From Candidatus Poribacteria bacterium (GTDB lineage: Bacteria; Poribacteria; WGA-4E; WGA-3G), in contig JAJDXV010000141.1 of the NCBI GenBank assembly GCA_022823085.1, forward strand, positions 62,001-126,000: 64,000 nt of DNA, given 5' to 3'. The notes beneath the pieces were generated by a model. The model was not told where the DNA came from, made no database searches, and saw nothing but the letters and a program-made list of their open reading frames with translations. This document shows positions 7,610 to 62,012 of the stretch, in pieces (the first letter of the stretch is position 1; each line of letters opens with the position of its first letter). The position numbers and the translations under genes are program-made.

Positions 7610-8731
7610 ATGCAACAAACGCTTCCGCACTTTCATGCACCTCATACCCAAAGCATCAAATACATCGGTTCCAAGCTAAAACTCATCCCACAGGTACTGG
7701 GACTTGTCAAAAAAGTCGATGCCAAGACAATTCTCGATGGCTTCGCAGGCACAACCCGCGTCTCACAAGCACTCGCCAAACTCGGCTACAGCGTCATTTG
7801 CAACGATATTGCCCCGTGGTCAAAAGTCTTCGGTACCTGCTATCTTTTGAACACAAAACCGAGAGAAACGTATCAACCGCTCATCGATCACCTCAATGTC
7901 GTGCCGCCTGTTGATGGTTGGTTCACGGAACACTACGGTGGACACGCAAACGGTGGCTGTGCCATCCAAGCGGATGGACTCAAAAAACCGTGGCAACTTC
8001 ACAACACCCGTAAATTAGATGCTATCCGGCAAGAGATCGAAACCCTTAATCCCAATCCTGTCGATAAAGCCGTCGCACTCACAAGCCTCATCCTCGCGCT
8101 TGATCGTGTTGACAACAGCCTGGGTCACTTTTCGGCGTATCTCAAGGCGTGGGCACCGCGCGCCTATAAAGAATTAGCACTTGAAGTCCCCGAAGTTTTC
8201 ACGTCAGAAGGCGCGCATCAGGTCTTTCAAAGCGACATCTTTGAACTCGTGCCGCGTGTTTCTGTAGACCTCGCATATTTCGATCCGCCGTACGGCTCAA
8301 ACAACGAGAAGATGCCCCCGTCTCGTGTTCGGTATGCCGCCTACTACCACCTTTGGAAAAGTGTTGTGCTTTTCGACAAACCCGACCTCTTTGGAAAAGC
8401 AAAACGGCGAAAAGATACATCAGACCGTTTCGCCGCTTCTGTATTTGAGGAATTCCGCCGGAACGATGCCGGACGATTTATTGCCGTTGACGCTATTGAA
8501 AGGTTAATCCGAGAGACGCAAGCGCGTTGGATTCTGTTGTCCTATAGTTCTGGTGGTCGCGCAACTGCCCAGCAATTGAACGATGTCATGCAAAACAACG
8601 GTGAACTCATCGCTACCGTTGAACTCAATTACAAAAAAAACGTCATGGCAGGTATGAGATGGACAGACGAGTGGATCAATGCCGCCGAGAAACCGAACCG
8701 TGAATTCCTTTTCCTTCTTGAAAAAGGTTAG
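7610..8731 (+). CDS. D12-class DNA adenine-N6 methyltransferase
   Basis: 373 residues. N-terminal KYIGSK (residues 17-22) is the usual opening of D12-class (Dam/DpnII-like) adenine methylases. Motif I, which binds S-adenosylmethionine, is DGFAGTTR (43-50); the acidic residue of motif II is D66 (CNDIAP); catalytic motif IV is DPPY (225-228). It is longer than Dam (about 280), with an extra target-recognition stretch between motifs. It would methylate adenine in a short target site. No certain endonuclease is adjacent, so it is either solitary or paired with the unknown protein upstream. Its 3' end overlaps the convergent sugar kinase gene by four bases. Confidence 0.88.
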   Translation: MQQTLPHFHAPHTQSIKYIGSKLKLIPQVLGLVKKVDAKTILDGFAGTTRVSQALAKLGYSVICNDIAPWSKVFGTCYLLNTKPRETYQPLIDHLNVVPPVDGWFTEHYGGHANGGCAIQADGLKKPWQLHNTRKLDAIRQEIETLNPNPVDKAVALTSLILALDRVDNSLGHFSAYLKAWAPRAYKELALEVPEVFTSEGAHQVFQSDIFELVPRVSVDLAYFDPPYGSNNEKMPPSRVRYAAYYHLWKSVVLFDKPDLFGKAKRRKDTSDRFAASVFEEFRRNDAGRFIAVDAIERLIRETQARWILLSYSSGGRATAQQLNDVMQNNGELIATVELNYKKNVMAGMRWTDEWINAAEKPNREFLFLLEKG

Positions 8732-18199: not shown

Positions 18200-18227
18200 T
18201 ATTATTATTCCTTTCGAGTGGTTAATA

Positions 18228-18274
18228 GTTGTCAGTTTTCAGTACGATTTTTTCTGCGAAAAAATCTTTCAGTT
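18228..18274. repeat. Short palindromic repeat, copy 1
   Basis: Core hairpin GATTTTTTC TGC GAAAAAATC with T6/A6 arms, flanked by GTCAGT and CTTTCAGT. Copies at 24253-24290 (inverted) and 52751-52793 have T5/A5 arms, so both arms changed together. Confidence 0.8.
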
Positions 18275-18307: not shown

Positions 18308-19270
18308 TCAGAAAAGTGATATTTGCTCAGCAGAATTCTGATTTGAGATTGGAATAGGCTCCGCTGTTTTGGTAAAGGCACGTTCAACAATTTCCTTTGC
18401 ACCGTTGGTCGGATTGAGGCTATGACCTCCTAACGCAATCAGCGCGGCGTTCCCTTCCGGCGCATTGTCAAGGCAATTGGGGGCGAGTACAAAGAGCGGT
18501 AAGTTCATCTCAAGAGCCGTTTTTGCTGCATTAAAAGTTCCGCTCATTTTACCTCGCGCATCTTGTTCAGGCCCCGATTCAATGACAACAACTGCTTTAG
18601 AGAGTGCACACACAAGTTTGTTTCGTAACATTGCGTTGCGCGCAATCCATTTGGTATCTGGATCAAATTGTGAAACCGCGAGGACATCTCGATCCCAATT
18701 GAATTTTTTAAATGCGTTTTTCTGACGTAGTTGATTGATACCATTCGGAAGTACGAGTGTCGTTGTTCCTTCTGCCGCTAAGGCACCTAAATGCGCCTCT
18801 GAGTCAACACCTTTGGCGTATCCAGAGACAACATTGATCCCTTCACTTGCAAGATCACCAGCAAGTTTTCGCGCAATACGAATTCCTTTATCTGAGACGT
18901 TCCGTGCGCCAACAATTGCGACACTGTCTGACATAAGGCGTTTCTGCTGACCCTTAACGAACAGCATCGGCGAAATTTCAAGGAGTTGTGGCGGAAAATC
19001 GGGGTGCCCCGGATAGATAATATCAACCCCTTGGCTTTTAAGCTCGCTATATGCTTCAGAGACCTTTTCCCTATCTTCTGTACGAATTTTGCCATTAAGG
19101 ATTTTCGCTAATTCAGGGAATTGTGCGGAGAGTTCGGTTTGGCTCCGCGGCACCATTTCAGGATCGAGGTTTTCCACTTCAAGTATCTTGGCAATCGAAG
19201 CCAGCAGCTTGGGTCCTATACCTCGAGTTTTAAAGAGTCGGAGCCAGAAATAGTCTCTGTTAATTTTCAT
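18308..19270 (-). CDS. DprA/Smf-family Rossmann protein
   Basis: 320 residues; ATG with AAGGA nearby. An N-terminal helix-hairpin-like part (TRGIGPKLLASI, residues 15-26) precedes the DprA Rossmann fold, with VGARNVS (120-126) and SGYAKGVDSEAH (149-160), the classical nucleotide/DNA-binding signature, and SGTFNAAKTALEMNLPL later. The usual C-terminal winged-helix domain is not evident. Housekeeping DprA loads RecA on incoming single-stranded DNA. Here the gene is the last of an operon 49 bp behind a WD40-phosphoribosyltransferase fusion, which is not the housekeeping context and points to a specialised, perhaps nucleotide-sensing, role. Confidence 0.88.
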   Translation of the reverse strand: MKINRDYFWLRLFKTRGIGPKLLASIAKILEVENLDPEMVPRSQTELSAQFPELAKILNGKIRTEDREKVSEAYSELKSQGVDIIYPGHPDFPPQLLEISPMLFVKGQQKRLMSDSVAIVGARNVSDKGIRIARKLAGDLASEGINVVSGYAKGVDSEAHLGALAAEGTTTLVLPNGINQLRQKNAFKKFNWDRDVLAVSQFDPDTKWIARNAMLRNKLVCALSKAVVVIESGPEQDARGKMSGTFNAAKTALEMNLPLFVLAPNCLDNAPEGNAALIALGGHSLNPTNGAKEIVERAFTKTAEPIPISNQNSAEQISLF

Positions 19271-19319: not shown

Positions 19320-22300
19320 TCAATCTCTGCCTGTCCGGGTTCGAGTTAGGGTTAGAACAAGCACGTGTTGCACACTACCTTGTTCATAGAGCACTTTGGT
19401 GGCTTCTCTCAAAGTCGTTCCTGAGTCATAGAGGTCGTCAACTAACAAAACACATTGATCCTTCAAACCTTGAGATTCAACAACAAACGCCCCACGGAGT
19501 TGTTCGCGTTTGTTTTCTACGTCTGGAAGATTTTTGAGAGGTTCTGTCCGTTTTACCTTCATTAGATAGTCCGTTCGAACGGGCACGCTCAAAAGTTTCC
19601 CTATTTCTTGTGCGACTTCGGTAACAGGTTGAAAATCCCTATTTGTATCTGAAGGCGGAATAGGAATAACAGCAGCAATATAAGGAAGCACAAGATGTCC
19701 ATCAACCGCAAATTTTTCTTCAACGAATTTGGCAGTAATCTCTGCGATAAGTTGAATCTTACTCCTATCATGACGATATTTCAACTGAAAAACCAATTCG
19801 CCAAATTCCGTTCGTTCTGTGTCGTATCCGCCACCCGGTAAGGGGCGACTTGATACCGTATGAATATCCAAAGCCCACCCTGCTCGCCAATTTCCATGAA
19901 TTTCCCGTGGATTGATGCCCGGATCCTTGTAAAAAGAGGCTGGAACTTCCCACAGAAGCACTGTACCATCTTTACTTCCAGTAGCGATTGTTTTGCCATC
20001 AGAACTGTAAGCAAGACAAGAAATATCGCCGATACACTTTGTTATTGTTATTTTTTCTTTTCCAGTAGTGGTATCCCACAAATTTACTTCTTTATCATTC
20101 CAAGTAGCGATTGTGCTCCCATCTGGACTATACGCTAAATTAAATCCAATAGGTTTATGGACGAGTGTAACTTTGCGTTCTCCGGTGCTAGCGTTCCACA
20201 AATACACATTTTTTCGACTCTTGGTTGCGATTGTTTTTCCATCTGGACTATATGCAAAATCCTCAATGTAACAACCCAAATCGGAATTAATGTGTCTGAG
20301 AGTAGTTTTGTGTGTTCCAGTGGCACTATCCCATAAATGTACTTCGTGTCCGTAATTTTTCCATGTAGCCATTGTTTTTCCATCCGGGCTATATACCAAA
20401 TTCTCAATACCAAAATTGTATCCATGGTCAACTAAGGTAGTATCATCTACCAAGACAATCTTGCGTTCGCCAGTGACAACATCCGGCAACCATATACCCC
20501 TATCTTCTCCTACCGCGATTGTGCTCCCATCCGGGCTATATGCAAAGCTAATGAAACCGCCACCGCTATTTCTGTCATCGATTAAAGTGGTTTTGTATTC
20601 TCCAGTAGTAGCATCCCATAACCGGATAAACTGTCCGAAATGGTCAATATTTTCTATGCGTTGAGTCCCTTTTGTAATGAGAGTGCTGCCATCTGGGCTA
20701 ACTGCAAAACTTTCGACATTGTAAGCGTGTTCCTCAAGAGTCACTTTATGTTTTCCAGTGTTAACATCCCATAACCGGATAACACATCCATCGCCAATTC
20801 CCCGGGTGGCGCGAATATGTTGCCCCTCCTTCCCATGCATACCGTAAGTAATTATTGCGCTGCCGTCCGGACTATAGAAAAAAATATAGCATGGATGTTC
20901 GGAAATGGTTTCTTTGCGTTCCGTTGTACTTAGATCCCATAAAGATATCTCAGTGACATCATCTCGGAACTCTCCTTTGGGCCCGCTCCGAATGGCGATT
21001 GTTTTGTTATCTGAGCTATAGGCAATGCTGAAAACGCTGCGGACATGTTCTGTAAAAATTGCCTTGTGTTCTCCAGTGACCGCATCCCATAAATATACTA
21101 CCTTAGAGCTCTTGGAAGCGATAGTACTGCCATTCGAGCTATACTGAAATGAAATGAAATCGTCGGTAAGCGTGGTTTTGTGTTCAAGTGTAGCTTTTCG
21201 TTTTCCGATGACCACATCCCACAAATATATTAAAGTCCTATCATAACTCTCGATGGCAATTGTTTTGCCATCCGAAATGTACTCAAATCCGCCGGTGCCA
21301 TCAAGTTCGAAGGCTTTATGTTCCCCGGTAGTAATATCCCACAAACACACCATTGCGACAGGTTCATCATCAATACAAGCATATGGAATCCAGGCAGCGA
21401 TTGTTTTGCCATCTGGACTGTACTCTAACGAACTCGGATACTTTAAGCTTGGTATCTCAAGGTAATTGACATAAGTATCTGCAGCAGTATCTGCAGCGAA
21501 AGTGGTCTTGTGTTCTCCAGTAACCGCATCCCACAAACATATCTCCCGCTGATCCTCGGTGGCGATAGTGCCGCCATCTGGACTATATGCAAAACTTTCA
21601 CCCGTAAACGTAGCTTTGAGTTCTCCAGTGATAGCATCCCACAAATATATTGCTTGTCCTCCCTCAGTGGTGATTGTTTCACCACCTGGACTATATACAA
21701 TATTCAAAACATTCCAAACATCTCCGGCATGGGTGAGTGTCATTTTGTGTTCTCCGGTGACAGTGTCCCACAATCTCACCTTTTTATAACTTTTTATCAT
21801 GCTTTTTATCATGCTTGTACTTCCATCCGCTGCTTTACCTTCCTGATAAAGCGGAGTAAGGGGATCCTGATCCTCTACTTCTATCTCTTGATAACTGTTT
21901 ATAGCAATTATTTTCCCATCCGGACTATACACAAAACTTATTCCAGTAATGGTGGCTTTGAGTTCTCCAGTGATAGCATCCCACAAACATATCTCAGGAC
22001 AAGAAGACGATCGTATGGAGGCAATTGTGCTCGCGTCCGGACTATAAGCAACACTATGAAATGAAGTATCGTATAAACGTTCTGTAAATGTGGCTTTTTG
22101 TTCTCCGGTGTTCGCATTCCACAAGCACGCTTTTCCTTGGCTGTTTGTAATGATTGTGCTTCCATCTGGACTATATAGGAAATCAGTAACGTTGTTGTCG
22201 TGGTTGAGCACGACTTTTTGTTCTCCAGTGACCGTATCCCACAACCGTACTGTTTTGTCATCACTGCTACTGGCAATAAAGTGGCCATTAGGACTATACG

Positions 22301-22505
22301 CGAGCCGATCAACAGGACCAGAATGTCCCGTGAACAAATTAAGTTCTTCACCTGTCTCAGCATCGTAGATCCAAATTCCAATGGAACTTGCTACCGCCAG
22401 ACGACTGCTGTCTGGAGAATACCTTATATCATTTATATAGCCTTTTCCAAGTCGAGCTTTGGCACCTTGAGGCAATTTCCACTTAGTGTAATCTGGGGAG
22501 TTCAT
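19320..22505 (-). CDS. Giant WD40-repeat protein fused to a ComF-like phosphoribosyltransferase
   Basis: 1061 residues. Residues 1 to about 855 are WD40 units of the form SPDGxTIA...LWDxxTGE; I count eighteen blade ends, enough for two or more beta-propellers. Residues ~865-1061 are a type I phosphoribosyltransferase: VIPIPPSD near residue 955, KREQLRGAF near 1003, and the PRPP-binding loop VDDLYDSGTT at 1022-1031. This last part resembles ComF and related proteins. The propellers would sense or hold a partner and the C-terminal domain would handle a PRPP-linked nucleotide or base. It lies between a membrane-protein gene (131 bp upstream) and the dprA homologue (49 bp downstream). No signal peptide, so cytoplasmic. 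I know of no described protein with this architecture, but cannot search. Confidence 0.9.
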   Translation of the reverse strand: MNSPDYTKWKLPQGAKARLGKGYINDIRYSPDSSRLAVASSIGIWIYDAETGEELNLFTGHSGPVDRLAYSPNGHFIASSSDDKTVRLWDTVTGEQKVVLNHDNNVTDFLYSPDGSTIITNSQGKACLWNANTGEQKATFTERLYDTSFHSVAYSPDASTIASIRSSSCPEICLWDAITGELKATITGISFVYSPDGKIIAINSYQEIEVEDQDPLTPLYQEGKAADGSTSMIKSMIKSYKKVRLWDTVTGEHKMTLTHAGDVWNVLNIVYSPGGETITTEGGQAIYLWDAITGELKATFTGESFAYSPDGGTIATEDQREICLWDAVTGEHKTTFAADTAADTYVNYLEIPSLKYPSSLEYSPDGKTIAAWIPYACIDDEPVAMVCLWDITTGEHKAFELDGTGGFEYISDGKTIAIESYDRTLIYLWDVVIGKRKATLEHKTTLTDDFISFQYSSNGSTIASKSSKVVYLWDAVTGEHKAIFTEHVRSVFSIAYSSDNKTIAIRSGPKGEFRDDVTEISLWDLSTTERKETISEHPCYIFFYSPDGSAIITYGMHGKEGQHIRATRGIGDGCVIRLWDVNTGKHKVTLEEHAYNVESFAVSPDGSTLITKGTQRIENIDHFGQFIRLWDATTGEYKTTLIDDRNSGGGFISFAYSPDGSTIAVGEDRGIWLPDVVTGERKIVLVDDTTLVDHGYNFGIENLVYSPDGKTMATWKNYGHEVHLWDSATGTHKTTLRHINSDLGCYIEDFAYSPDGKTIATKSRKNVYLWNASTGERKVTLVHKPIGFNLAYSPDGSTIATWNDKEVNLWDTTTGKEKITITKCIGDISCLAYSSDGKTIATGSKDGTVLLWEVPASFYKDPGINPREIHGNWRAGWALDIHTVSSRPLPGGGYDTERTEFGELVFQLKYRHDRSKIQLIAEITAKFVEEKFAVDGHLVLPYIAAVIPIPPSDTNRDFQPVTEVAQEIGKLLSVPVRTDYLMKVKRTEPLKNLPDVENKREQLRGAFVVESQGLKDQCVLLVDDLYDSGTTLREATKVLYEQGSVQHVLVLTLTRTRTGRD

Positions 22506-22636: not shown

Positions 22637-23113
22637 TTAGGTGTTTTCAACTTCGCTCTGATAGGGATCCAAGGTTTGCCATTTGTTTTTATACCAAACT
22701 TCAAAACGAATAACATCTTTCCAATGAAGGAACATGGATACGGTCTGGGTAGGCATATTGTGATAAATCCATATTGAACTATCCCATTTCTCAATATATT
22801 TTGGATCGAACAGTACGCCCTGAAAATTAAACCGAGTATGGCTTTCCCGAAAAATTCTTGCTCTCTTCACAGTTTTTGTAGGTTTGTCAATATCAATGTC
22901 AGGGATAATAGTACATGGTAAATTGTACTCTACAGCTGCTTCATTTTGCTGTCCAAGGTTGTAATAGCATCTCCCTTCAACCGGTGAACCGCGGCGGATT
23001 CGTTTTGACCATTGGTGAGCTTTCCAAGCTATGCAAGCCAATAGAAAAGATATAAGAAAGGGGCCTAAATTACCAACAATGTTCCTGATTAGTTCAAATG
23101 TGTCAATTTTCAT
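22637..23113 (-). CDS. Unknown membrane-anchored protein in the WD40-PRTase/DprA operon
   Basis: 158 residues. One N-terminal membrane segment (VGNLGPFLISFLLACIAW, residues 13-30) followed by a basic stretch KRIRRG and a soluble part with many aromatic residues that I cannot assign. By the positive-inside rule the basic stretch favours a cytoplasmic C-terminal domain. Its ATG overlaps the stop of the FRG-like gene (ATGA), so the two are translationally coupled. It may anchor the operon's products at the membrane; this is inference from position only. Confidence 0.7.
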   Translation of the reverse strand: MKIDTFELIRNIVGNLGPFLISFLLACIAWKAHQWSKRIRRGSPVEGRCYYNLGQQNEAAVEYNLPCTIIPDIDIDKPTKTVKRARIFRESHTRFNFQGVLFDPKYIEKWDSSIWIYHNMPTQTVSMFLHWKDVIRFEVWYKNKWQTLDPYQSEVENT

Positions 23114-23864: not shown

Positions 23865-24252
23865 GGGTATGGATAGGGTATTGCGATAAACTTAGTCGTT
23901 GTAAGGGTTCAGAGGCGATTGTGTTATGGATTCGTATTTAAAAAAAGGCGAAAGGTGTAACATTTTCGATTTGCGTTTGCGGCGACTCTGCGTCGTTAGG
24001 CAAAAGGGTTTTCGTTTTAACAGCGTCTACGTTTTGTCCTCTTTTGTGTGGGTGAAGGGTTATTTTTACCTTTTTTCTTGATTAATATAATTAAATTAGT
24101 ATGTATATGATAACATATATGATGTAGAGATGCAAATTTATTTTTTATTTCCCCAAACGGGGGACAATTAACACCTTTAACACCTTGTGGCGGTTACCTT
24201 TCCTGCTACTGCGAAAAGGAACCTCTTTAACTGAAAGCGCAGCGTACTGAGC

Positions 24253-24290
24253 ACTGAAAGATTTTTCGCAGAAAAATCGTACTGACAACT
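24253..24290. repeat. Short palindromic repeat, copy 2 (inverted orientation)
   Basis: CTGAAAGATTTTTCGCAGAA then AAATCGTACTGACAACT: the reverse complement of the copies at 18228 and 52751, with T5/A5 arms. It lies five bases after the stop of the double-vWA gene. Confidence 0.8.
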
Positions 24291-24295
24291 GATAA

Positions 24296-26500
24296 CTACT
24301 GATTCGGATAGGCTTTGTTTAGATGCTTCGGCATTGGGAAAAAGATGCCACCTGTCTGTTCCACGAGGGTTTTCTGAAAATCTGTTGCTCGAGGATGACC
24401 GATCACGTAGGCGCGGACACCTAATGACTGACACACGCTGAGGGCACGTTCCGGCGGATATTTTCCGGTCGTCGGTTCGTCTGTTAGGATTAACAGAAAT
24501 CGACTTGCAAATGGACTGAATTTCACTTTCGGAAGCCCTTCGACAATCGCGTCAATGAGGTGTTCATCGCCACCGAACGGGTCTTCCATATAACTTTTCA
24601 ACATCGATTCGTTCAACGGCATCTGCGTGACGACCGCACCGTTGATGACCTTGATGGCATCTTTCGCCTCCGCGAAACGGATGAGTCCGATCCGATACTT
24701 GATCGGCAGAATGTCTAATCGACCGATAAGGGTGCTTAATCCGAGCATGATGGCTTCAGACTTTCCACCCATACTCCGGCTGTAGTCGAGCATCACAACG
24801 ATGTCGACAACAGTGCCGAACCCTTTTTCAGGCGATGCCCCTGGCGTTCCACCGGCGTAGACGTTCAACCGATCTTTTTCGTTGCGGACGGTGTACATCC
24901 GATTGCCCCTACGGTCATTGATAAGCCATCTGTTACCGCGCTGTTGCGTCAAAGCAGTGAGATTCTCAGAGAGATTCCAACTTTCAGGATAGATACCGGC
25001 GTAAACGTTGAGTTTGTCACCCGCTTTACGGATTGTGTAGGTGTGATTGCTGGTGTAGTCGGTGATCACCCACAGATCGCCTTCTTCCTTTTCCCAGACT
25101 TTGGCATTATTAAACAGACTTCCACCCATGGATAGGGAGACACCGTTCCGTTTGAATTCGCGTTCCAATTTCTGTGCCGGTATGTCACCGTCTTCGAGTT
25201 CTACCTCGAATTGAGATGCCATGCTAAATAGCAATTGACCGCCGCTACGACGGATGTCGGTGACGATGTCGCGAAAGACTTTGATAAATGCGCTGTTGCC
25301 GGCGTGCGTGCTCGGCAGCGAGGTCGCCCCTCGGAAGTCTCCCGGAATCTGCTGCCACAACCCGCCTGTCGTTTCTGCTAACTGTTTCTGGAACTGTTCG
25401 GGGTAGCCGAGAACGTTAGTACGGATCTCCTGCAGTTGGTATTCCTTAATGACTTTCTCTCGTGTTTTTTCTATATCTTCTTTGGTAAAAGCGGTTGTTG
25501 CGGGTTCGTCTGTTACGAGGATGATAAACCTATCCGCGTCGGCATGAAAATCGATCCGATGTAGTGTGTCTAATAATGCGTCAAGTGCGCGTTCATTGCC
25601 GCTAAGCGTCACTTGTTGCATCCGTCTGCGCAGCATAGCAACATCTGGTAACAAGCTGCGAACTTCGAGGTTCTGTCCTTCGTGTCGGACACTGAATTCG
25701 GACATGCCGAGGTGATATTCGATATTAACGAGATCAAACGCGTCGGTGAGGCTATAGAGGTTTTCTGCGACCTCTTGGATATTATCGCGCATACTTGCAC
25801 TCGTATCTACGACAAAGACAACATTCACCTTGTCCAATTCGCGTGTGGCAATGATATGGCTGGCGATGTTTTCGAGGGCTTCTGCAAACGGGTTGGTGCT
25901 ATCTCCTTTACCAGTGCCCTCACCTTCGCCATCGCCATCGCCGTCACCGATAGGTCCGATTTCGGCAGCACCTGTTGAGTCGAGTTTGTGGAATCCGGTT
26001 TTGCCGTCACCTTTCACGCGTTGACGTACACTCTCGACACCTTCGCCTGCAGTGGCTTGAAAAGGGCTCGCTACTGATTCGTGGATTGGTGTGGTGCGAC
26101 TATTGAACGGACGCTGTGCATCTGTCATCACGTCTGGAAGCGTGGTCTCCGTATCCGATACAGATTTCGTCGCATTCTGTAGAAGTTCCACCTCCGATTG
26201 CTGGATAGTCTCATTGATTAAATTCGCCGAGGCATCCAAGTCCAAATATCGCTGATTCGATTCCGTGGACGGGTCCGTCTGTTGTGGCACCCGTAACCGT
26301 TTAGGCGGTGGTGGTTTAAGTCTACGCGGACGTTGCGGATCAGCCTTCGGGGATATCAAGTCCACTTCAATGACATCTGCGACCCCTGCGGGTCTTTGAA
26401 TATAAAACGAAAATGTAAAAGCAATAATAAGGCAGAGATGCACAACACCTGAGAAGAGGAGTGCGCGCATTGAACGGTGTCGTCTATAAGAACGGTTCAC
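24296..26500 (-). CDS. Membrane-anchored protein with two von Willebrand factor A domains
   Basis: 734 residues from GTG 26500 (GGAGAAAAACC upstream). N-terminal membrane segment at ~11-34, then a proline/arginine-rich stretch like TonB-type energy transducers, then a Gly-Asp-Glu run (residues 185-198). vWA domain 1 has the MIDAS DTSAS (Asp232) and domain 2 has DYSRS (Asp572); each ends with T-D-E-P and a G-x-P-x-x-F-Q-K-x-L-x-E/x-Q/T-T-G-G pattern, so the two halves are duplicated. Between them are two short repeats with W-x-I-x-D...YT-R..DKLNVYAG. It would sit in the cell envelope and bind ligands through metal. Function unknown. Confidence 0.85.
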   Translation of the reverse strand: MNRSYRRHRSMRALLFSGVVHLCLIIAFTFSFYIQRPAGVADVIEVDLISPKADPQRPRRLKPPPPKRLRVPQQTDPSTESNQRYLDLDASANLINETIQQSEVELLQNATKSVSDTETTLPDVMTDAQRPFNSRTTPIHESVASPFQATAGEGVESVRQRVKGDGKTGFHKLDSTGAAEIGPIGDGDGDGEGEGTGKGDSTNPFAEALENIASHIIATRELDKVNVVFVVDTSASMRDNIQEVAENLYSLTDAFDLVNIEYHLGMSEFSVRHEGQNLEVRSLLPDVAMLRRRMQQVTLSGNERALDALLDTLHRIDFHADADRFIILVTDEPATTAFTKEDIEKTREKVIKEYQLQEIRTNVLGYPEQFQKQLAETTGGLWQQIPGDFRGATSLPSTHAGNSAFIKVFRDIVTDIRRSGGQLLFSMASQFEVELEDGDIPAQKLEREFKRNGVSLSMGGSLFNNAKVWEKEEGDLWVITDYTSNHTYTIRKAGDKLNVYAGIYPESWNLSENLTALTQQRGNRWLINDRRGNRMYTVRNEKDRLNVYAGGTPGASPEKGFGTVVDIVVMLDYSRSMGGKSEAIMLGLSTLIGRLDILPIKYRIGLIRFAEAKDAIKVINGAVVTQMPLNESMLKSYMEDPFGGDEHLIDAIVEGLPKVKFSPFASRFLLILTDEPTTGKYPPERALSVCQSLGVRAYVIGHPRATDFQKTLVEQTGGIFFPMPKHLNKAYPNQ

Positions 26501-40205: not shown

Positions 40206-41369
40206 TCAAGCGTCAAAACCAGTAATCTCGCGAGCCTTCTCGAAGAAGGCGCGTTTGCGCGGTGTGTTGAGCTGCCATTGCACAGGTACGGATTGGTAGC
40301 CGTGGTGGTAATCGTTTTCACCCGGATCAAAGTAACCCCACGAGGCGTATTGGCTGACAGCAGCGACAAAGTTATTCAACGGTTTATCGAAATCGAAGTG
40401 GTCGTCCTCGTTAAAAAGGATCGGCATCGGACGGTAGCCGGGGACCTCGCGCGTCTGCTGTACCATCTCAATGATACGATTCGGGTCTTTGACACCGTTG
40501 CCGTGAATAAGCAAGAAATCAGAGGAACGGACGACATTTTCGAGCGGCACTTTACCGCCGCCGTAACTGGTCCCGACGAGGAATCTATTCCCGTTGCGGG
40601 TCGTCGCTTTTACACGTTCAATCAACTCATGTACCCGATCCGGTTTAAGGATATCGTGGGTATATGCTCTGACATTGCATTCGTTATTCACTTCAACGAT
40701 AACGTTAGTATACCCCTTGTCAAAGAGCCAACCGGTTGCATTGTCAACGGCGTTTTTGACAGCGTCCTCGTCCTTAACCCGCTGATCTTGTCCGAAATAG
40801 AAATAGCCGAGGATAACGACCATACCGAGAGCATCCGCGAAGTCGATAATCCGTTCGAGTCGTGAGAGGTAGTCCGGATTGAGACTGCCGTCGGCTTCTA
40901 TACCGGAGTTATGCCACGGCTGTGCTTTTGAGTAGCCTTCGGGACTCCCGCCTTGCAGGTTAATTGTGAACCCCAATACGCCGTGGGCGCGCCATGCGGG
41001 CATCGCGGATAAAAATTCGCGCGTATTCCGTTCCGGATCCCATACACCTGTATCGGGATATTCCCATCTATAAATGGTTTCTGGGTTCCGGTCATCAAAG
41101 ATACCTTGCACCATACGGGTGTTGATGAGCAATCCCTCGACTTTGTTCCCTTGATATGAGCGTCCGGGATAGGTGATTTCGCCGTTAATGTAAAAAGCAT
41201 CGTCAACGATACTAACTGCTGTCTTCATCTGCGTTTTCCTTTCGTTTGTAGGTCTATCGGTATGCGTTTCCTGTGAGTCCGCGTGAAGCCTTGGGTGACC
41301 GCTGGCGAGCAGCAGGCCTGCCAATGCGGTACTGCTGTTGATTAAAAAGTTTCTACGGTTCATAGTCAT
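40206..41369 (-). CDS. GH5-like TIM-barrel glycosidase, Tat-exported
   Basis: 387 residues. MNRRNFLINSSTALAGLLLASG is a twin-arginine signal. The barrel follows: VIVEVNNECN near residue 225 has the Asn-Glu pair used as acid/base in clan GH-A, and PILFNEDDHFD near residue 320 carries a second glutamate that could be the nucleophile. This supports a retaining GH5-type or related enzyme, but the exact family is uncertain. Its start overlaps the end of the restriction-modification gene by 17 bases, so translation may be coupled although the functions seem unrelated. Mature protein would be periplasmic. Confidence 0.75.
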   Translation of the reverse strand: MTMNRRNFLINSSTALAGLLLASGHPRLHADSQETHTDRPTNERKTQMKTAVSIVDDAFYINGEITYPGRSYQGNKVEGLLINTRMVQGIFDDRNPETIYRWEYPDTGVWDPERNTREFLSAMPAWRAHGVLGFTINLQGGSPEGYSKAQPWHNSGIEADGSLNPDYLSRLERIIDFADALGMVVILGYFYFGQDQRVKDEDAVKNAVDNATGWLFDKGYTNVIVEVNNECNVRAYTHDILKPDRVHELIERVKATTRNGNRFLVGTSYGGGKVPLENVVRSSDFLLIHGNGVKDPNRIIEMVQQTREVPGYRPMPILFNEDDHFDFDKPLNNFVAAVSQYASWGYFDPGENDYHHGYQSVPVQWQLNTPRKRAFFEKAREITGFDA

Positions 41370-44300
41370 CGTGATGTAACTCCGGCAGTGCCTCCACGAT
41401 CTTTACCGTATCCAGACTAACTGTAACAACCTTTCCGATGAGTTTGACGATGTATTGTGGATCGTCTGCTCGGTTTGGGTCGTTCACAATGCCGCTGCGC
41501 TTATCTATTTTAACACAATACTGATTAATTATCCACTCTAACGCGGAACGGTTGCCGAGCCTGTAATCGAAGGCTTTTTTTGGGATACCGTCGAGTGTAA
41601 GGAAATCGTTATAGACGATTTGTGTTTTGTCTTTCGAGAGTTTCATTTTCTCGACACGCCAATCGAGCGGTGTATCTGGGTTCTGAACTAATTTCAGTCC
41701 ATCGTATTCGGGTTGCGATTCGTAGTTGACGTGGAGATCGGCTAAGCGTGCGCCTGCTTCTGCGAATCCCCAAAAATCCTTAGCAAACGGGATATGTGGT
41801 AAATCGCGTTTAAGGTTCGCCTCATACTTTTCGCGATAAGTGGGATGATGCAGGAGTCCGTAATTATAGTGGAAGATGTCCGACTTGGTGATGGTGTCGT
41901 CTTTGTAGTGGGATCGGAATTCTGTCAACGCCCAATCGGTGATGTTCTCGCGGCGGTTGGTGCCATCCTCGTCGTAGGTGTAGAACGGGAAGCATTGAAA
42001 ACCATCGCTTGTTGAAAGTGTGTGTAGATCGGGAATTAGATTCGCCATTAAGGTACTGAATTCTGAGCGAAAACCGTGATCGCTGACAATTATGACTCGA
42101 TTTTCAGTCTCGGTTTCTGGTGTCGGGAAAATCTGATATTGCTGATAACGCTCCTCATTCCAGAAGTGATCAAAGTAGAGATATTTCTGACAGAACGGAC
42201 GATACAATGCTGCGCGAAAGTGCGTATCCTCATAGGTACTTGGTTCCAGTTTTTTCAGTGATGCTTTCACTTGACGAGTCCATTTTATACGCGGATCATC
42301 CGTATCAATGAAATTTTCAACAGGTTCTTTTGGATCATGTCGTTTTTTCCGATCAACAGCGGTGTTGTATATCTCAATAAATGTCCGAACACGTTCTTGT
42401 AACAATCCAGAATCAAAAGCATAAGCCAAATTGTCCCGATTTGTAGCGATACCTAAAGAGTAGAGCCTAAAAATCGTCTCCCCATCAACCTGTGTGCCTG
42501 TTATTTTTTTGCTACCCATCGGAATAAAGGTATCAAATTCGGGGTGGAGTCCTTCAGTGAGCCACGTTTGGCGTGCGTCAGGCAGAATCGACTCCCACCC
42601 GATATTACCTGTATACTGGCATTCACTGAGAAAATCGAATTTCTGCTTTTTGTTCCACAAGTCGTCGGTACGGTAATAGTAGATACGCGGTGATTCTGAG
42701 GCGTTGTCCTTTTTCTTTACAAACAGATTAATACTCACACCGACACGAATCCCGAACACATTCGCATCAGAGACCTTTAACCCTTTCCGCGCATTCCCGC
42801 CTAAGTCGAAAATATAGATAGCGTTGCAATCTTCAGCGAGATGTTTCCGCATGCCGTCAAACGCTACACCGTCGAGGAAACTGTTGTTTGTTACGAAGGC
42901 GACAACACCTTCGTCGCCAATTCTGTCCAATCCCCATCGAATCGCTTTGACATAAGGATCGTAGAGTTTGTTTCTGAGCGTCGCTTTGGAGTCTTTTGCA
43001 TAAGTGTCCGCAATCCGCTTATCCATTGTCTCATACTTCCGATTCTTGTTGTTATCGTTCTCATTGATCTGTCCCATATTGTACGGCGGATTGCCAATCA
43101 CAACAAACATGTCGGTCTCTTTCTGTTTTTCGACGCGTGCTGTGTTCGCTTGGGTAAGGAGTTGCAGCTGCCGGTCTTCTACCATCTCGAATGTATCTAC
43201 CAAGGATATACCTTCGTAGGGGACATACCGATGCGTCGCTGTGTAGAACTCGTGCTCAATGTTGAGACTGGCGATATAGTAAGGTAGGAGCATCACCTCA
43301 TTGCACTGGAGTTCCGGCGGGTCGGCTGTGTACTTCCGTTCTAACGCGATAGGTTCGAGTTCCTGCATGATACGGGCGATGAAATTCCCTGTACCCACAA
43401 ACGGATCAATGATATTCACACCGGTATCGGAGAGCGAACGGTTGAACTCGGTCTGTAGGATATGCTCGACGCTTTTCACCATGAAATCGACGATCGGTTG
43501 CGGTGTGTAGACGATGCCGTGCGTGTCTGCGACCTTCACAGAGAAGCCTTGAAAAAACTGCTCGTAGACGGTGTTAAGGAATCCCTGTTTCTGTGAGAAA
43601 TCGGTGATAGTTGCGGCGGTCTGCTCAATCGCAACGTAGAACGGGTCCAAACTCTGGAGGAACTGGTTGCGGTCGAACACCTGTGAAGTGAGTGCGTCGA
43701 TGACGTTCTCGATTTCGCGTGCGATGATGTTGCGGCGCGTGAAGTCGCGGTTGTTGAAGACGGTGCGGAAGATGCGTTCCGTCAATAGGTGCTGGATGAG
43801 CATCTCCTCTACAGCGGCGATAGAGAGGTTCGGATTGATGGAGGTCTGACACTGCTGATGGAAGTTAGTAAACGCTTCCTGAAATCGCGGGTTGTTCCGG
43901 CGTTCGGTTTCGATGAGTGCTGATAACTTCTCGCCGAGTTCCGGGACGGTCTCTTTGAATTCGGAAACAGCCGTATGCCACGCCGAGATATTCTCTTCCT
44001 GATACGCGAAGAAGGTCTGGAGGACGTTGACGAGGTTTCTCGGTTCGGTGATGTCTAAATCGAGTTGGAGCTGCCCGTGCTGATAAAGCAGCGCGTGCGT
44101 CGGCGACTGGACGACAATATTTTTCGACGGGTAGCCTGCGGCGAACTTCTTATCTGCTTCGACGTAGAGATCGTCTTGTGTATCCTTTGCTTCCCAGTAC
44201 CCGTAGGGTAGACCGAACGGATCGACGATTTCGCCATCGGGAGTTATCCGTCTATTCTCTGGTGTGTAATGTGTCTTCTCACAGACGAGGATGAGATCTG

Positions 44301-44445
44301 CCTGTCGGCAGTAGTATTGTAAGAGGTTCTGAAATGCGGTTCGGACAGCACCCTCATGTTCCGCGCCGACGCTGTCATATTCTTCAAGTTCGGCGTAGTA
44401 GTTTTTGATGGGTTTGTGGGTCGGTCTGATATTGGGATGTGGCAT
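41353..44445 (-). CDS. Single-polypeptide restriction-modification enzyme (type IIG/ISP-like)
   Basis: 1030 residues. The N-terminal part has a nuclease-type region with D...YGYWEAKD (the E-x-K of PD-(D/E)XK, near residues 80-92). A helical linker follows. The adenine methylase core has motif I NIIDPFVGTGNF (near residue 345) and motif IV NPPYN (near residue 458). The C-terminal ~350 residues are likely the target-recognition part. One protein thus carries both cutting and methylating functions, as in type IIG and ISP-like enzymes; no separate specificity subunit is seen. A helicase domain, needed for type I or true ISP enzymes, is not apparent. No clear Shine-Dalgarno precedes the ATG. Confidence 0.85.
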   Translation of the reverse strand: MPHPNIRPTHKPIKNYYAELEEYDSVGAEHEGAVRTAFQNLLQYYCRQADLILVCEKTHYTPENRRITPDGEIVDPFGLPYGYWEAKDTQDDLYVEADKKFAAGYPSKNIVVQSPTHALLYQHGQLQLDLDITEPRNLVNVLQTFFAYQEENISAWHTAVSEFKETVPELGEKLSALIETERRNNPRFQEAFTNFHQQCQTSINPNLSIAAVEEMLIQHLLTERIFRTVFNNRDFTRRNIIAREIENVIDALTSQVFDRNQFLQSLDPFYVAIEQTAATITDFSQKQGFLNTVYEQFFQGFSVKVADTHGIVYTPQPIVDFMVKSVEHILQTEFNRSLSDTGVNIIDPFVGTGNFIARIMQELEPIALERKYTADPPELQCNEVMLLPYYIASLNIEHEFYTATHRYVPYEGISLVDTFEMVEDRQLQLLTQANTARVEKQKETDMFVVIGNPPYNMGQINENDNNKNRKYETMDKRIADTYAKDSKATLRNKLYDPYVKAIRWGLDRIGDEGVVAFVTNNSFLDGVAFDGMRKHLAEDCNAIYIFDLGGNARKGLKVSDANVFGIRVGVSINLFVKKKDNASESPRIYYYRTDDLWNKKQKFDFLSECQYTGNIGWESILPDARQTWLTEGLHPEFDTFIPMGSKKITGTQVDGETIFRLYSLGIATNRDNLAYAFDSGLLQERVRTFIEIYNTAVDRKKRHDPKEPVENFIDTDDPRIKWTRQVKASLKKLEPSTYEDTHFRAALYRPFCQKYLYFDHFWNEERYQQYQIFPTPETETENRVIIVSDHGFRSEFSTLMANLIPDLHTLSTSDGFQCFPFYTYDEDGTNRRENITDWALTEFRSHYKDDTITKSDIFHYNYGLLHHPTYREKYEANLKRDLPHIPFAKDFWGFAEAGARLADLHVNYESQPEYDGLKLVQNPDTPLDWRVEKMKLSKDKTQIVYNDFLTLDGIPKKAFDYRLGNRSALEWIINQYCVKIDKRSGIVNDPNRADDPQYIVKLIGKVVTVSLDTVKIVEALPELHHDDYEP

Positions 44446-52653: not shown

Positions 52654-53001
52654 AATATGCTCCTTGCTTACAAAAACGAAGGCGTGGTTGTGTGGTTTGC
52701 ATTGTAGATATATTATAGCAACAAAACGGGTGGCGTGTCAAATGTGAATAGTTGTCAGTACGATTTTTCTGCGAAAAATCTTTCAGTTGTCAGTTAACAG
52801 TTGTCAATACGCCGTGAAACAGAAAACCAGACGACAAGCCGCATCTATCGCGCTCGAGCAGCAAGGTTTTTGACTCTCTTAGTGGTAAACAGCGAAAGTT
52901 TGCTTCAAAGAATCGGGTTTATCGGGCAGCAATATTTTTCACGGGATTTGTGGAAATGTGATATAATTACGCAATCGTATCATTAAACCTTGGAGGAACT
53001 T
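52654..53001. other. Divergent intergenic region
   Basis: 348 bp between the PhyH gene and the enolase-superfamily gene. Holds copy 3 of the short palindromic repeat and a TATAAT box at 52962-52967 that suits the right-hand gene, without a clear -35. No gene seen. Confidence 0.6.
52751..52793. repeat. Short palindromic repeat, copy 3
   Basis: GTTGTCAGTA then hairpin GATTTTTC TGC GAAAAATC then TTTCAGTTGTCAG; T5/A5 arms. Same orientation as copy 1. Confidence 0.8.
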
Positions 53002-60731: not shown

Positions 60732-62012
60732 CTAAACTTCAGGCTGCGACTTCAAGATTCGAAGGGCATCCTGAGCTCGTCTACGTTGTCTCTCTGCTAA
60801 CGGGTTTCTCGGATCTAACTTAAGTGCCTTGGCAGAATGGGTGATGACCGCCTGATAATATCGTTTTGCCTCACCGATGTCTCCTTCATCCGCCTTATCT
60901 TCGGCGATATGAATTTTTACCTCCGCCAAATTAACGTGTGCGATTGCATACTCAGGGTTAATTTCAATCGCTTTATTGAGATCTTCAAGTAGCCCCTGTT
61001 CGTCTCCAAGATTACCTTTTGCAGATGCCCGATTGTTGTAGGCGAAGATATGTTCCGGATTAATTTCAATCATCTTATCAAAATCCTTAATAGCACTTCC
61101 AAGTTTCCCAATGCGGAGTTTTACGATACCTCGTTTAGAGTAGATTTCAACCAAGTCTGGGTTGAGTTTCAGAGCGGCGTTATAGTCTCTTATCGCCCCA
61201 CTATTTTTGTTTCGTTCTGACATTTTGTCGTCCGCTCGTGCTTCCAAAGCATAGGCGCGTACGCGGGGGTCCGCCTGGAACTCATCCAACCAGATAACTT
61301 CTCCTGCATTCGCGAGGAGCTCCTGAAGCACATTTGAAGATACAGCTGTCCCCATCATTGAACGACTATCCCCCGCGGAGGAACCCGTCGCGTAAGCAAA
61401 TACACCGATGACTTCTTGCTTGCTGTTTAGGACGGGACTGCCACTGCCCGCACCAGAGAAGTGGATTCTTATATGAAGCCACCTATCATCTCTATATCTG
61501 CTCTGAAGATAACCTGCTGCGCCTGCACATCTTGGCTCATCTCGGTTTCCAATTGCATAAACCGTCTCGCCTATCTCAACGGTATCGCTATCACCCAACG
61601 GTAAGGGTACCCCTGTCTCCTCGATTTTGAGGAGCACAAGGTTATTTTTCGTATCATAAGCAGTAACACCTTCAATAGTGTACTCTTCCAGAACGTCCTC
61701 ATTTGGCACAAGAATTTGGTTGCGCTTACGTCTACGGGAAGACCGATTCCTGCTACTGCTGAATGCCCTTTGAAAAGAGACCGCCGAAAATGCGGCAATA
61801 CTGAGAGCTTTTGATAACGCATCAATAGTCGTCACGATCTTGTCGGGTGCCACAAAGAATCCGGTTGTCGAAGCAAGGTTAATTGTTGGCCCGTCGTCTG
61901 TTGAGAAGAATACAGTCGGTTTTTTAAGGTCAGGTTCTGTTAGAAAAAAAACAATAGACTGTTTATTGTCTTCAATTATCTGTCTTAACGACCTATCTTT
62001 TTTCTTTTTCAT
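60732..62012 (-). CDS. Trypsin-fold/TPR protein with replaced catalytic residues (pseudoprotease)
   Basis: 426 residues from ATG 62012, chosen for AAAAGGA upstream; a frame to 62048 exists. Homologous to the proteins at 1-1623 and 62417-64000. At the catalytic His position it has Asp64 (VTTIDAL instead of ATxxHxV) and at the Asp position Asn124 (NNLVLLK instead of NDLAVLK). Ser190 (GAGSGSPV) is kept. A 30-residue Arg/Ser-rich insert (residues ~75-105) replaces a surface loop. With two of three triad residues lost it cannot be a normal serine protease. TPR units fill residues ~280-420. Last gene of a three-member tandem array. Confidence 0.88.
   Translation of the reverse strand: MKKKKDRSLRQIIEDNKQSIVFFLTEPDLKKPTVFFSTDDGPTINLASTTGFFVAPDKIVTTIDALSKALSIAAFSAVSFQRAFSSSRNRSSRRRKRNQILVPNEDVLEEYTIEGVTAYDTKNNLVLLKIEETGVPLPLGDSDTVEIGETVYAIGNRDEPRCAGAAGYLQSRYRDDRWLHIRIHFSGAGSGSPVLNSKQEVIGVFAYATGSSAGDSRSMMGTAVSSNVLQELLANAGEVIWLDEFQADPRVRAYALEARADDKMSERNKNSGAIRDYNAALKLNPDLVEIYSKRGIVKLRIGKLGSAIKDFDKMIEINPEHIFAYNNRASAKGNLGDEQGLLEDLNKAIEINPEYAIAHVNLAEVKIHIAEDKADEGDIGEAKRYYQAVITHSAKALKLDPRNPLAERQRRRAQDALRILKSQPEV

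Follow-up and report, generated by a model that had tools for sequence, protein, structure and literature searches.

What is the function of a bacterial protein in which a long array of WD40 repeats is joined to a phosphoribosyltransferase (PRTase)? This question is raised by a gene located in a 64,000-nucleotide stretch of contig JAJDXV010000141.1 of Candidatus Poribacteria bacterium (positions 62,001 to 126,000), referred to here as the window. The initial annotation had reported eighteen WD40 blade ends and a type I PRTase in one gene, and this layout is confirmed: the open reading frame (ORF) begins with an ATG preceded by a Shine-Dalgarno-like GAGGAGG and runs uninterrupted for 1061 codons, with 18 blades at the N-terminus and the PRTase at the C-terminus (Table 1). 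While the count of 18 stands, the 'WD' wording is degenerate in two of the 18 blades, which end in IYD (blade 1) and LPD (blade 14), and the final blade ends in WE. The architecture had also been described as unusual; indeed, it was found in only two of the 85 Poribacteria genomes surveyed, and in none of the other relatives examined among GTDB, viral, phage and plasmid sequences. This reading was nonetheless incomplete, as it overlooked the DprA-like gene that adjoins the fusion. With such a partner, the meaning of the locus shifts from that of a 'WD40 enzyme' to that of a putative WD40-headed toxin belonging to a known toxin-antitoxin/anti-phage class.

On sequence grounds, the PADLOC matches of the two neighbouring genes to PsyrT and PsyrA place the pair in the PRTase-toxin/DprA-antitoxin class (PsyrTA/RqlHI/ShosTA), as a variant headed by WD40 blades instead of the RecQ helicase. 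The fusion matches PsyrT (3.9e-18) over residues 899-1058, and PsyrT outscores ShosT. Its partner matches PsyrA (2.5e-46), ShosA (2e-37) and Pfam DNA_processg_A (1.6e-41), and the PDB sequence matches of the partner comprise DprA structures and 9vzo ('DprA-like antitoxin protein ShosA'). Pfam Pribosyltran is found on the C-terminal 199 residues of the fusion (5.7e-6), its 26.2 bits falling just under the cutoff of 26.3. The active-site degeneration that the initial annotation had named as a sign against its reading was not seen: the VDDLYDSGTT loop, which binds phosphoribosyl pyrophosphate (PRPP), is intact, and its DD is invariant in 33 of 33 aligned PRTases. Furthermore, an AlphaFold2 model of the PRTase domain built on 33 relatives reached a pLDDT of 92.4.

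The class itself is known; the novelty lies in the WD40 head, which was lost repeatedly and whose interior has turned over. Like PsyrTA/RqlHI, the best PADLOC match for both window genes, the locus combines a large N-terminal module, a C-terminal PRTase with an intact PRPP loop, and a DprA-like gene just downstream on the same strand. It differs in that the toxin carries a WD40 array and not a RecQ helicase (only WD40/beta-propeller families are matched in the N-terminal 850 residues), and in that the 320-residue partner lacks the C-terminal helix-turn-helix (HTH) part, its match stopping at position 310 of the 398 of the PsyrA model. RqlI can do without its HTH (PMC4670107). ShosTA is likewise a PRTase and DprA pair, and its layout is that of the stand-alone sister loci L040-L054 (L labels denote loci and G labels genomes, G000 being the window genome); the window toxin, in contrast, is a 1061-residue fusion with 18 blades and not a short stand-alone PRTase. 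Retrons with PRTase effectors (PMC9122126) also possess a PRTase as the probable toxic effector restrained by a partner, but no reverse transcriptase was seen in the neighbourhood, and restraint in the window would fall to the DprA-like protein. Finally, the WRAP and NLR-like (nucleotide-binding leucine-rich repeat-like) WD40 conflict proteins, known from Nostoc and with Apaf-1 as a eukaryotic analogue, share the long WD40 array on an effector, the blade turnover and the cytosolic location. Here, however, the effector would be a PRTase whose antitoxin is a separate protein, the blades are not recent copies, and neither a STAND/NB-ARC domain nor any other NTPase family is among the Pfam and NCBIfam matches shown for the fusion.

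In RqlH, toxicity requires the PRPP pocket of the PRTase domain, pocket mutants being non-toxic, while RqlI binds this domain and the N-terminal helicase part also helps restraint (PMC4670107). A DprA and PRTase pair has been reported to defend E. coli from T7 and lambda (PMC9122126). We consider it fairly probable that the window pair encodes an abortive-type PRTase effector, restrained by the DprA-like protein and equipped with an exchangeable WD40 module for sensing or restraint. The C-terminal PRTase would be a growth-stopping toxic effector using PRPP, and the DprA-like protein, by analogy with RqlHI, would bind the PRTase domain and keep it off. The 18-blade array, in the position occupied by RecQ in PsyrT/RqlH, would most likely act in the cytosol as a platform for protein binding, by which the PRTase is either restrained or licensed. 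An invader component, or the loss of a guarded host component, might then engage the array or the DprA partner, upon which the PRTase would be released and growth would stop.

The same pair could be read as a competence or DNA-uptake device, in which a ComFC-like protein with a WD40 scaffold acts with DprA on incoming single-stranded DNA. ComFC and DprA both function in natural transformation (PMC9005727), the closest PDB fold to the PRTase domain model is the PRPP-bound ComF of H. pylori (7p0h), and NCBIfam GntX/ComF models match the C-terminal domain. However, in a tree of 42 PRTases including ComF, RecQ-fused and SLOG-paired sequences, the ComF proteins form one clade (support 100/99) and the window PRTase lies outside it, within a poribacterial DprA-paired clade (97/98); the RecQ-fused and SLOG-paired PRTases of other phyla, plasmids and viral contigs lie on separate branches. 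The window PRTase also lacks the four-cysteine zinc finger of ComFC, as residues 855-1061 hold no cysteine cluster and the domain a single cysteine. Moreover, the genome possesses a distinct ComF with an N-terminal cysteine cluster (L006) and two further, ordinary DprA proteins (L003, L004), and relatives of the window PRTase on plasmids and viral contigs adjoin small SLOG genes. With these points against it, a role in competence appears improbable; the tree and the separate genes likewise rule out that the pair is simply the housekeeping ComF and DprA. The synonymous distance of the window PRTase is 0.70 to the fusion of genome G040 and 0.9-1.1 to same-genus copies, and the DprA gene shows the opposite pattern against G029; a mosaic origin of the toxin is not claimed, since the bootstrap intervals overlap for the toxin.

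How widespread, then, are the pair and its N-terminal modules? A PRTase and DprA-like pair was found in 20 of the 85 Poribacteria genomes, three or four of these pairs being damaged, and in several the two genes overlap by 4 nt. The WD40 fusion is restricted to the window genome and G040, a member of another genus whose fusion of 974 residues has a PRTase 73% identical to that of the window. A RecQ-HEAT-PRTase fusion, the PsyrT layout, occurs in G072 and G076. Since WD40-headed, RecQ-HEAT-headed and stand-alone PRTases all occur in Poribacteria, the N-terminal module has changed within one phylum. At loci L038 and L039, a HEAT-repeat-like stretch lies between the RecQ helicase and the PRTase, with DprA downstream in L039. 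No further WD40-PRTase fusion was recovered among the best 80 of 208 loci of the genome_contigs search (27 of them, those with the most query-like non-poribacterial candidates, were read ORF by ORF), nor in IMG/VR (five loci), phages (four weak matches) or plasmids (three records inspected of 59); a more distant fusion may exist beyond these relatives. Outside the phylum, the nearest relatives among the matches listed are stand-alone PRTases accompanied by a SLOG-like gene of 182-193 residues, or RecQ fusions with DprA. The small SLOG-like gene follows the PRTase at L101-L109, L166-L169, L259 and L261, from other phyla, plasmids and viral contigs, where the pairs are annotated as a ComF family protein and a hypothetical protein; at L260, on an Agrobacterium plasmid, the partner is labelled 'addiction module antidote protein'. 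In G040 (L037:4438-10688), the WD40-PRTase gene, a transposase-like ORF of 365 residues, another, stand-alone PRTase and one DprA-like gene stand in a row, and with two PRTases beside a single DprA-like gene, one partner may serve two toxins.

Five same-genus genomes carry the pair at the corresponding site, following the vWA gene and, on contigs that extend far enough, preceding MoaB, but they lack the array. Three of the five (L040, L041 and L046) retain the last WD40 blade just upstream of the PRTase, and L048 retains first-blade remnants behind an FRG-TPR gene. At the DNA level, the homology of L040/L041 exits the window sequence at the end of the vWA gene (24246-24297) and re-enters it inside blade 18 (20012-20017), a gap of about 4.2 kb; for L042, L043 and L046 the point of re-entry is 19916, where the PRTase domain begins. 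These remnants and jumps in homology are most simply explained by a fusion ancestral to the clade, from which the array would have been deleted more than once. The ratios of nonsynonymous to synonymous substitution (PRTase, 0.09-0.22; DprA-like gene, 0.10-0.16) indicate that both genes are under purifying selection. Decay has nevertheless set in elsewhere: in G029 the toxin loop is altered to DDLYDSRTT beside an intact partner, G050 and G056 combine a broken toxin with an intact partner, and in G039 both are broken. A nucleotide-salvage or regulatory PRTase (GntX/PurR-like) on a WD40 scaffold would share the type I fold and the PRPP loop, but we find this very improbable in view of the toxin decay in sister genomes, the DprA-like partner, the best family match being PsyrT, and an N-terminal module that changed repeatedly.

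The array itself gave a Pfam WD40 match of E=3.1e-42, and its 18 blades may be partitioned into propellers as 7+11, 9+9, 7+7+4 or otherwise. When the full-length model was submitted to Foldseek, the top matches were 2ymu, a repetitive propeller, and Apaf-1, with TM-scores of at most 0.34 by query length; as modelled, the architecture recalls Apaf-1-type control, but without an NTPase. Blades related to the leader blade are numerous: the family counts 95 blade matches in the window genome and has members in 67 of the 85 genomes. Most of these leader paralogs read open with a signal-peptide-like stretch ending in FAQDYTxWxLPEGA..., and the N-terminus of the fusion, MNSPDYTKW..., starts right after the signal-peptide point of the paralogs. 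This suggests that a secreted-type WD40 module was probably captured into a cytosolic toxin. A secreted host-interaction protein is ruled out by the same N-terminus, which has no signal peptide. Leader-blade proteins lie on contigs C15, C38, C41, C68, C102 and others of the window genome (L227-L256), many with signal peptides; several (L229, L237 and L242) have N-termini that by eye resemble extracytoplasmic function (ECF) sigma factors, and L234 and L254 have metalloprotease-like C-termini.

From wording shared by adjacent units, the initial annotation had proposed recent unit duplication, and for the window gene this did not hold. Median identity between blades is 46% (maximum 63%), below the level of more than about 60% mutual identity expected of a recently amplified propeller, and adjacent blades are hardly more alike at the DNA level (70.5%) than non-adjacent ones (68.5%). 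The only repeats reported by Tandem Repeats Finder (TRF) were two short ones of 12 nt, with no tandem array of blade size; recent tandem amplification was therefore rejected for the window gene. The idea survives in a changed form, as turnover of inner blades and closely similar neighbours in G040. There, blade identity has a median of 49% and a maximum of 73%, and neighbouring blades share 85-86% DNA identity. Compared between the two fusions by protein score, the first blade (89% DNA identity), the second and the last each match their counterpart best. The inner blades 3-17, in contrast, show no collinearity: the observed chain score was equalled or exceeded in 505 of 1000 shuffles, and the Spearman coefficient for their order is 0.06. 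As the inner chain is no better than shuffled blades, the comparison indicates that the array interior has turned over between the two fusions, with both ends and the effector kept; together with the closely similar neighbours of G040, it points to an evolutionarily labile array. Such turnover may be general to poribacterial WD40 genes, whether PRTase-fused or not.

Is the array, then, a working part of the system? The pair might serve in defence while the array contributes nothing: a WD40 gene of the secreted type would have been joined to the PRTase by accident, would have no function and would now be disappearing from most lineages. The abundance of leader WD40 genes would make chance capture easy, and the array has been lost at least two or three times. 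Against this, the 850-residue array has kept its reading frame open in two genera, between which the identity of the PRTases has fallen to 73%; blade 1, blade 2 and the final blade are conserved, and the signal peptide is gone, indicating a protein fitted to the cytosol. We regard an incidental array as unlikely, and continue to favor a restrained PRTase effector with a WD40 sensing or restraint module. Several points weigh against this preferred reading. Toxicity, neutralisation, a trigger from phages or mobile genetic elements, and the role of the array are all inferred. Most relatives lack the array, which is thus dispensable for the core function and could simply be carried along neutrally, and the full-length AlphaFold2 model is weak (pLDDT 67, pTM 0.42). 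Solitary DprA-like genes are present in many same-genus genomes, so the partner may serve a different purpose. The window pair also lies outside any dense defence island, next to a truncated FRG gene and flanked by vWA and MoaB genes. The solitary DprA-like genes, which have no PRTase neighbour (L002 = G000:C129:24775-25689, 74%; L067-L085), form a branch of their own within the genus, with weak support (82/74), and could possibly be a retained antitoxin or have a separate function.

A single phylum here offers a natural series of stand-alone, RecQ-fused, WD40-fused and WD40-deleted PRTases, with or without a damaged toxin, which separates effector, restraint and N-terminal module, so that the effect of this module on the PRTase becomes testable. 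If the array senses, WD40 turnover would re-aim a toxin without an NTPase. The WD40 proteins of sponge symbionts are usually treated as host-interaction factors (PMC3909097), and for some of these many proteins an intracellular role is suggested as a possibility.

Further upstream of the fusion lie a truncated FRG gene and an ORF of 158 residues, the latter matching nothing in Pfam or PADLOC and lacking relatives across the 85 Poribacteria genomes. In G040 (L037:10918-12489) and G021 (L048:7949-9289), the gene immediately preceding the WD40-PRTase gene or its remnant is a complete FRG-TPR gene. Pfam FRG matches these full-length relatives at 1.5e-15 and 9.7e-15, PADLOC reports the candidate PDC-S15 (1.9e-28) for G040, and what reads like an FRG start is fused to the start of the PRTase in L047. 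The ancestral cassette was probably composed of FRG-TPR, WD40-PRTase and DprA-like genes. A bolder proposal, possible but doubtful in our estimation, is that the array is a lineage-diversified recognition surface, whose conserved ends and rewritten interior would re-aim the same effector and restraint at different invader proteins; a propeller would have been swapped for a helicase to yield an NLR-like sensor without an NTPase, and the FRG-TPR gene would be the second arm of the ancestral cassette.

Table 1. Features of the WD40-PRTase locus (positions in the window)
Feature	Position	Strand	Remarks
WD40-PRTase fusion gene, 1061 aa	19320..22505	minus	
WD40 array, 18 blades, residues 22-854	19944..22442	minus	Pfam and AlphaFold2; all-beta four-stranded units
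Blades 1-2	22197..22442	minus	orthologous to blades 1-2 of the G040 fusion
Blade 18	19944..20030	minus	orthologous to last G040 blade; persists as stump in L040/L041/L046
Type I PRTase domain, residues 863-1061	19323..19919	minus	
PRPP loop VDDLYDSGTT, residues 1022-1031	19413..19442	minus	
DprA/SLOG-like partner, 320 aa, probable antitoxin	18308..19270	minus	49 nt downstream of fusion
Truncated FRG-domain gene start, 52 aa	23110..23268	minus	60.8% over 51 aa, E=2e-13 to G040 FRG protein
158-aa ORF	22637..23113	minus	starts in ATGA overlap with stop of FRG fragment
Inverted-repeat arm	18226..18252		dispersed palindromic repeat family
Other inverted-repeat arm	24272..24298		end of vWA gene

Related palindrome arms flank the cassette in inverted orientation. 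The palindromic repeat GTCAGTACGATTTTTCTGCGAAAAATC has 22 matches in the genome, with none for the reversed control, and its sites in the window are 18226-18252, 24260-24298 and 52762-52780; as a dispersed palindrome with this many matches, it was ruled out as marking the ends of a mobile unit. Elsewhere in the window, a D12-class adenine methyltransferase is encoded at 7610-8731 and a Type ISP restriction-modification enzyme (Type_ISP_C, 2e-103) at 41353-44445.
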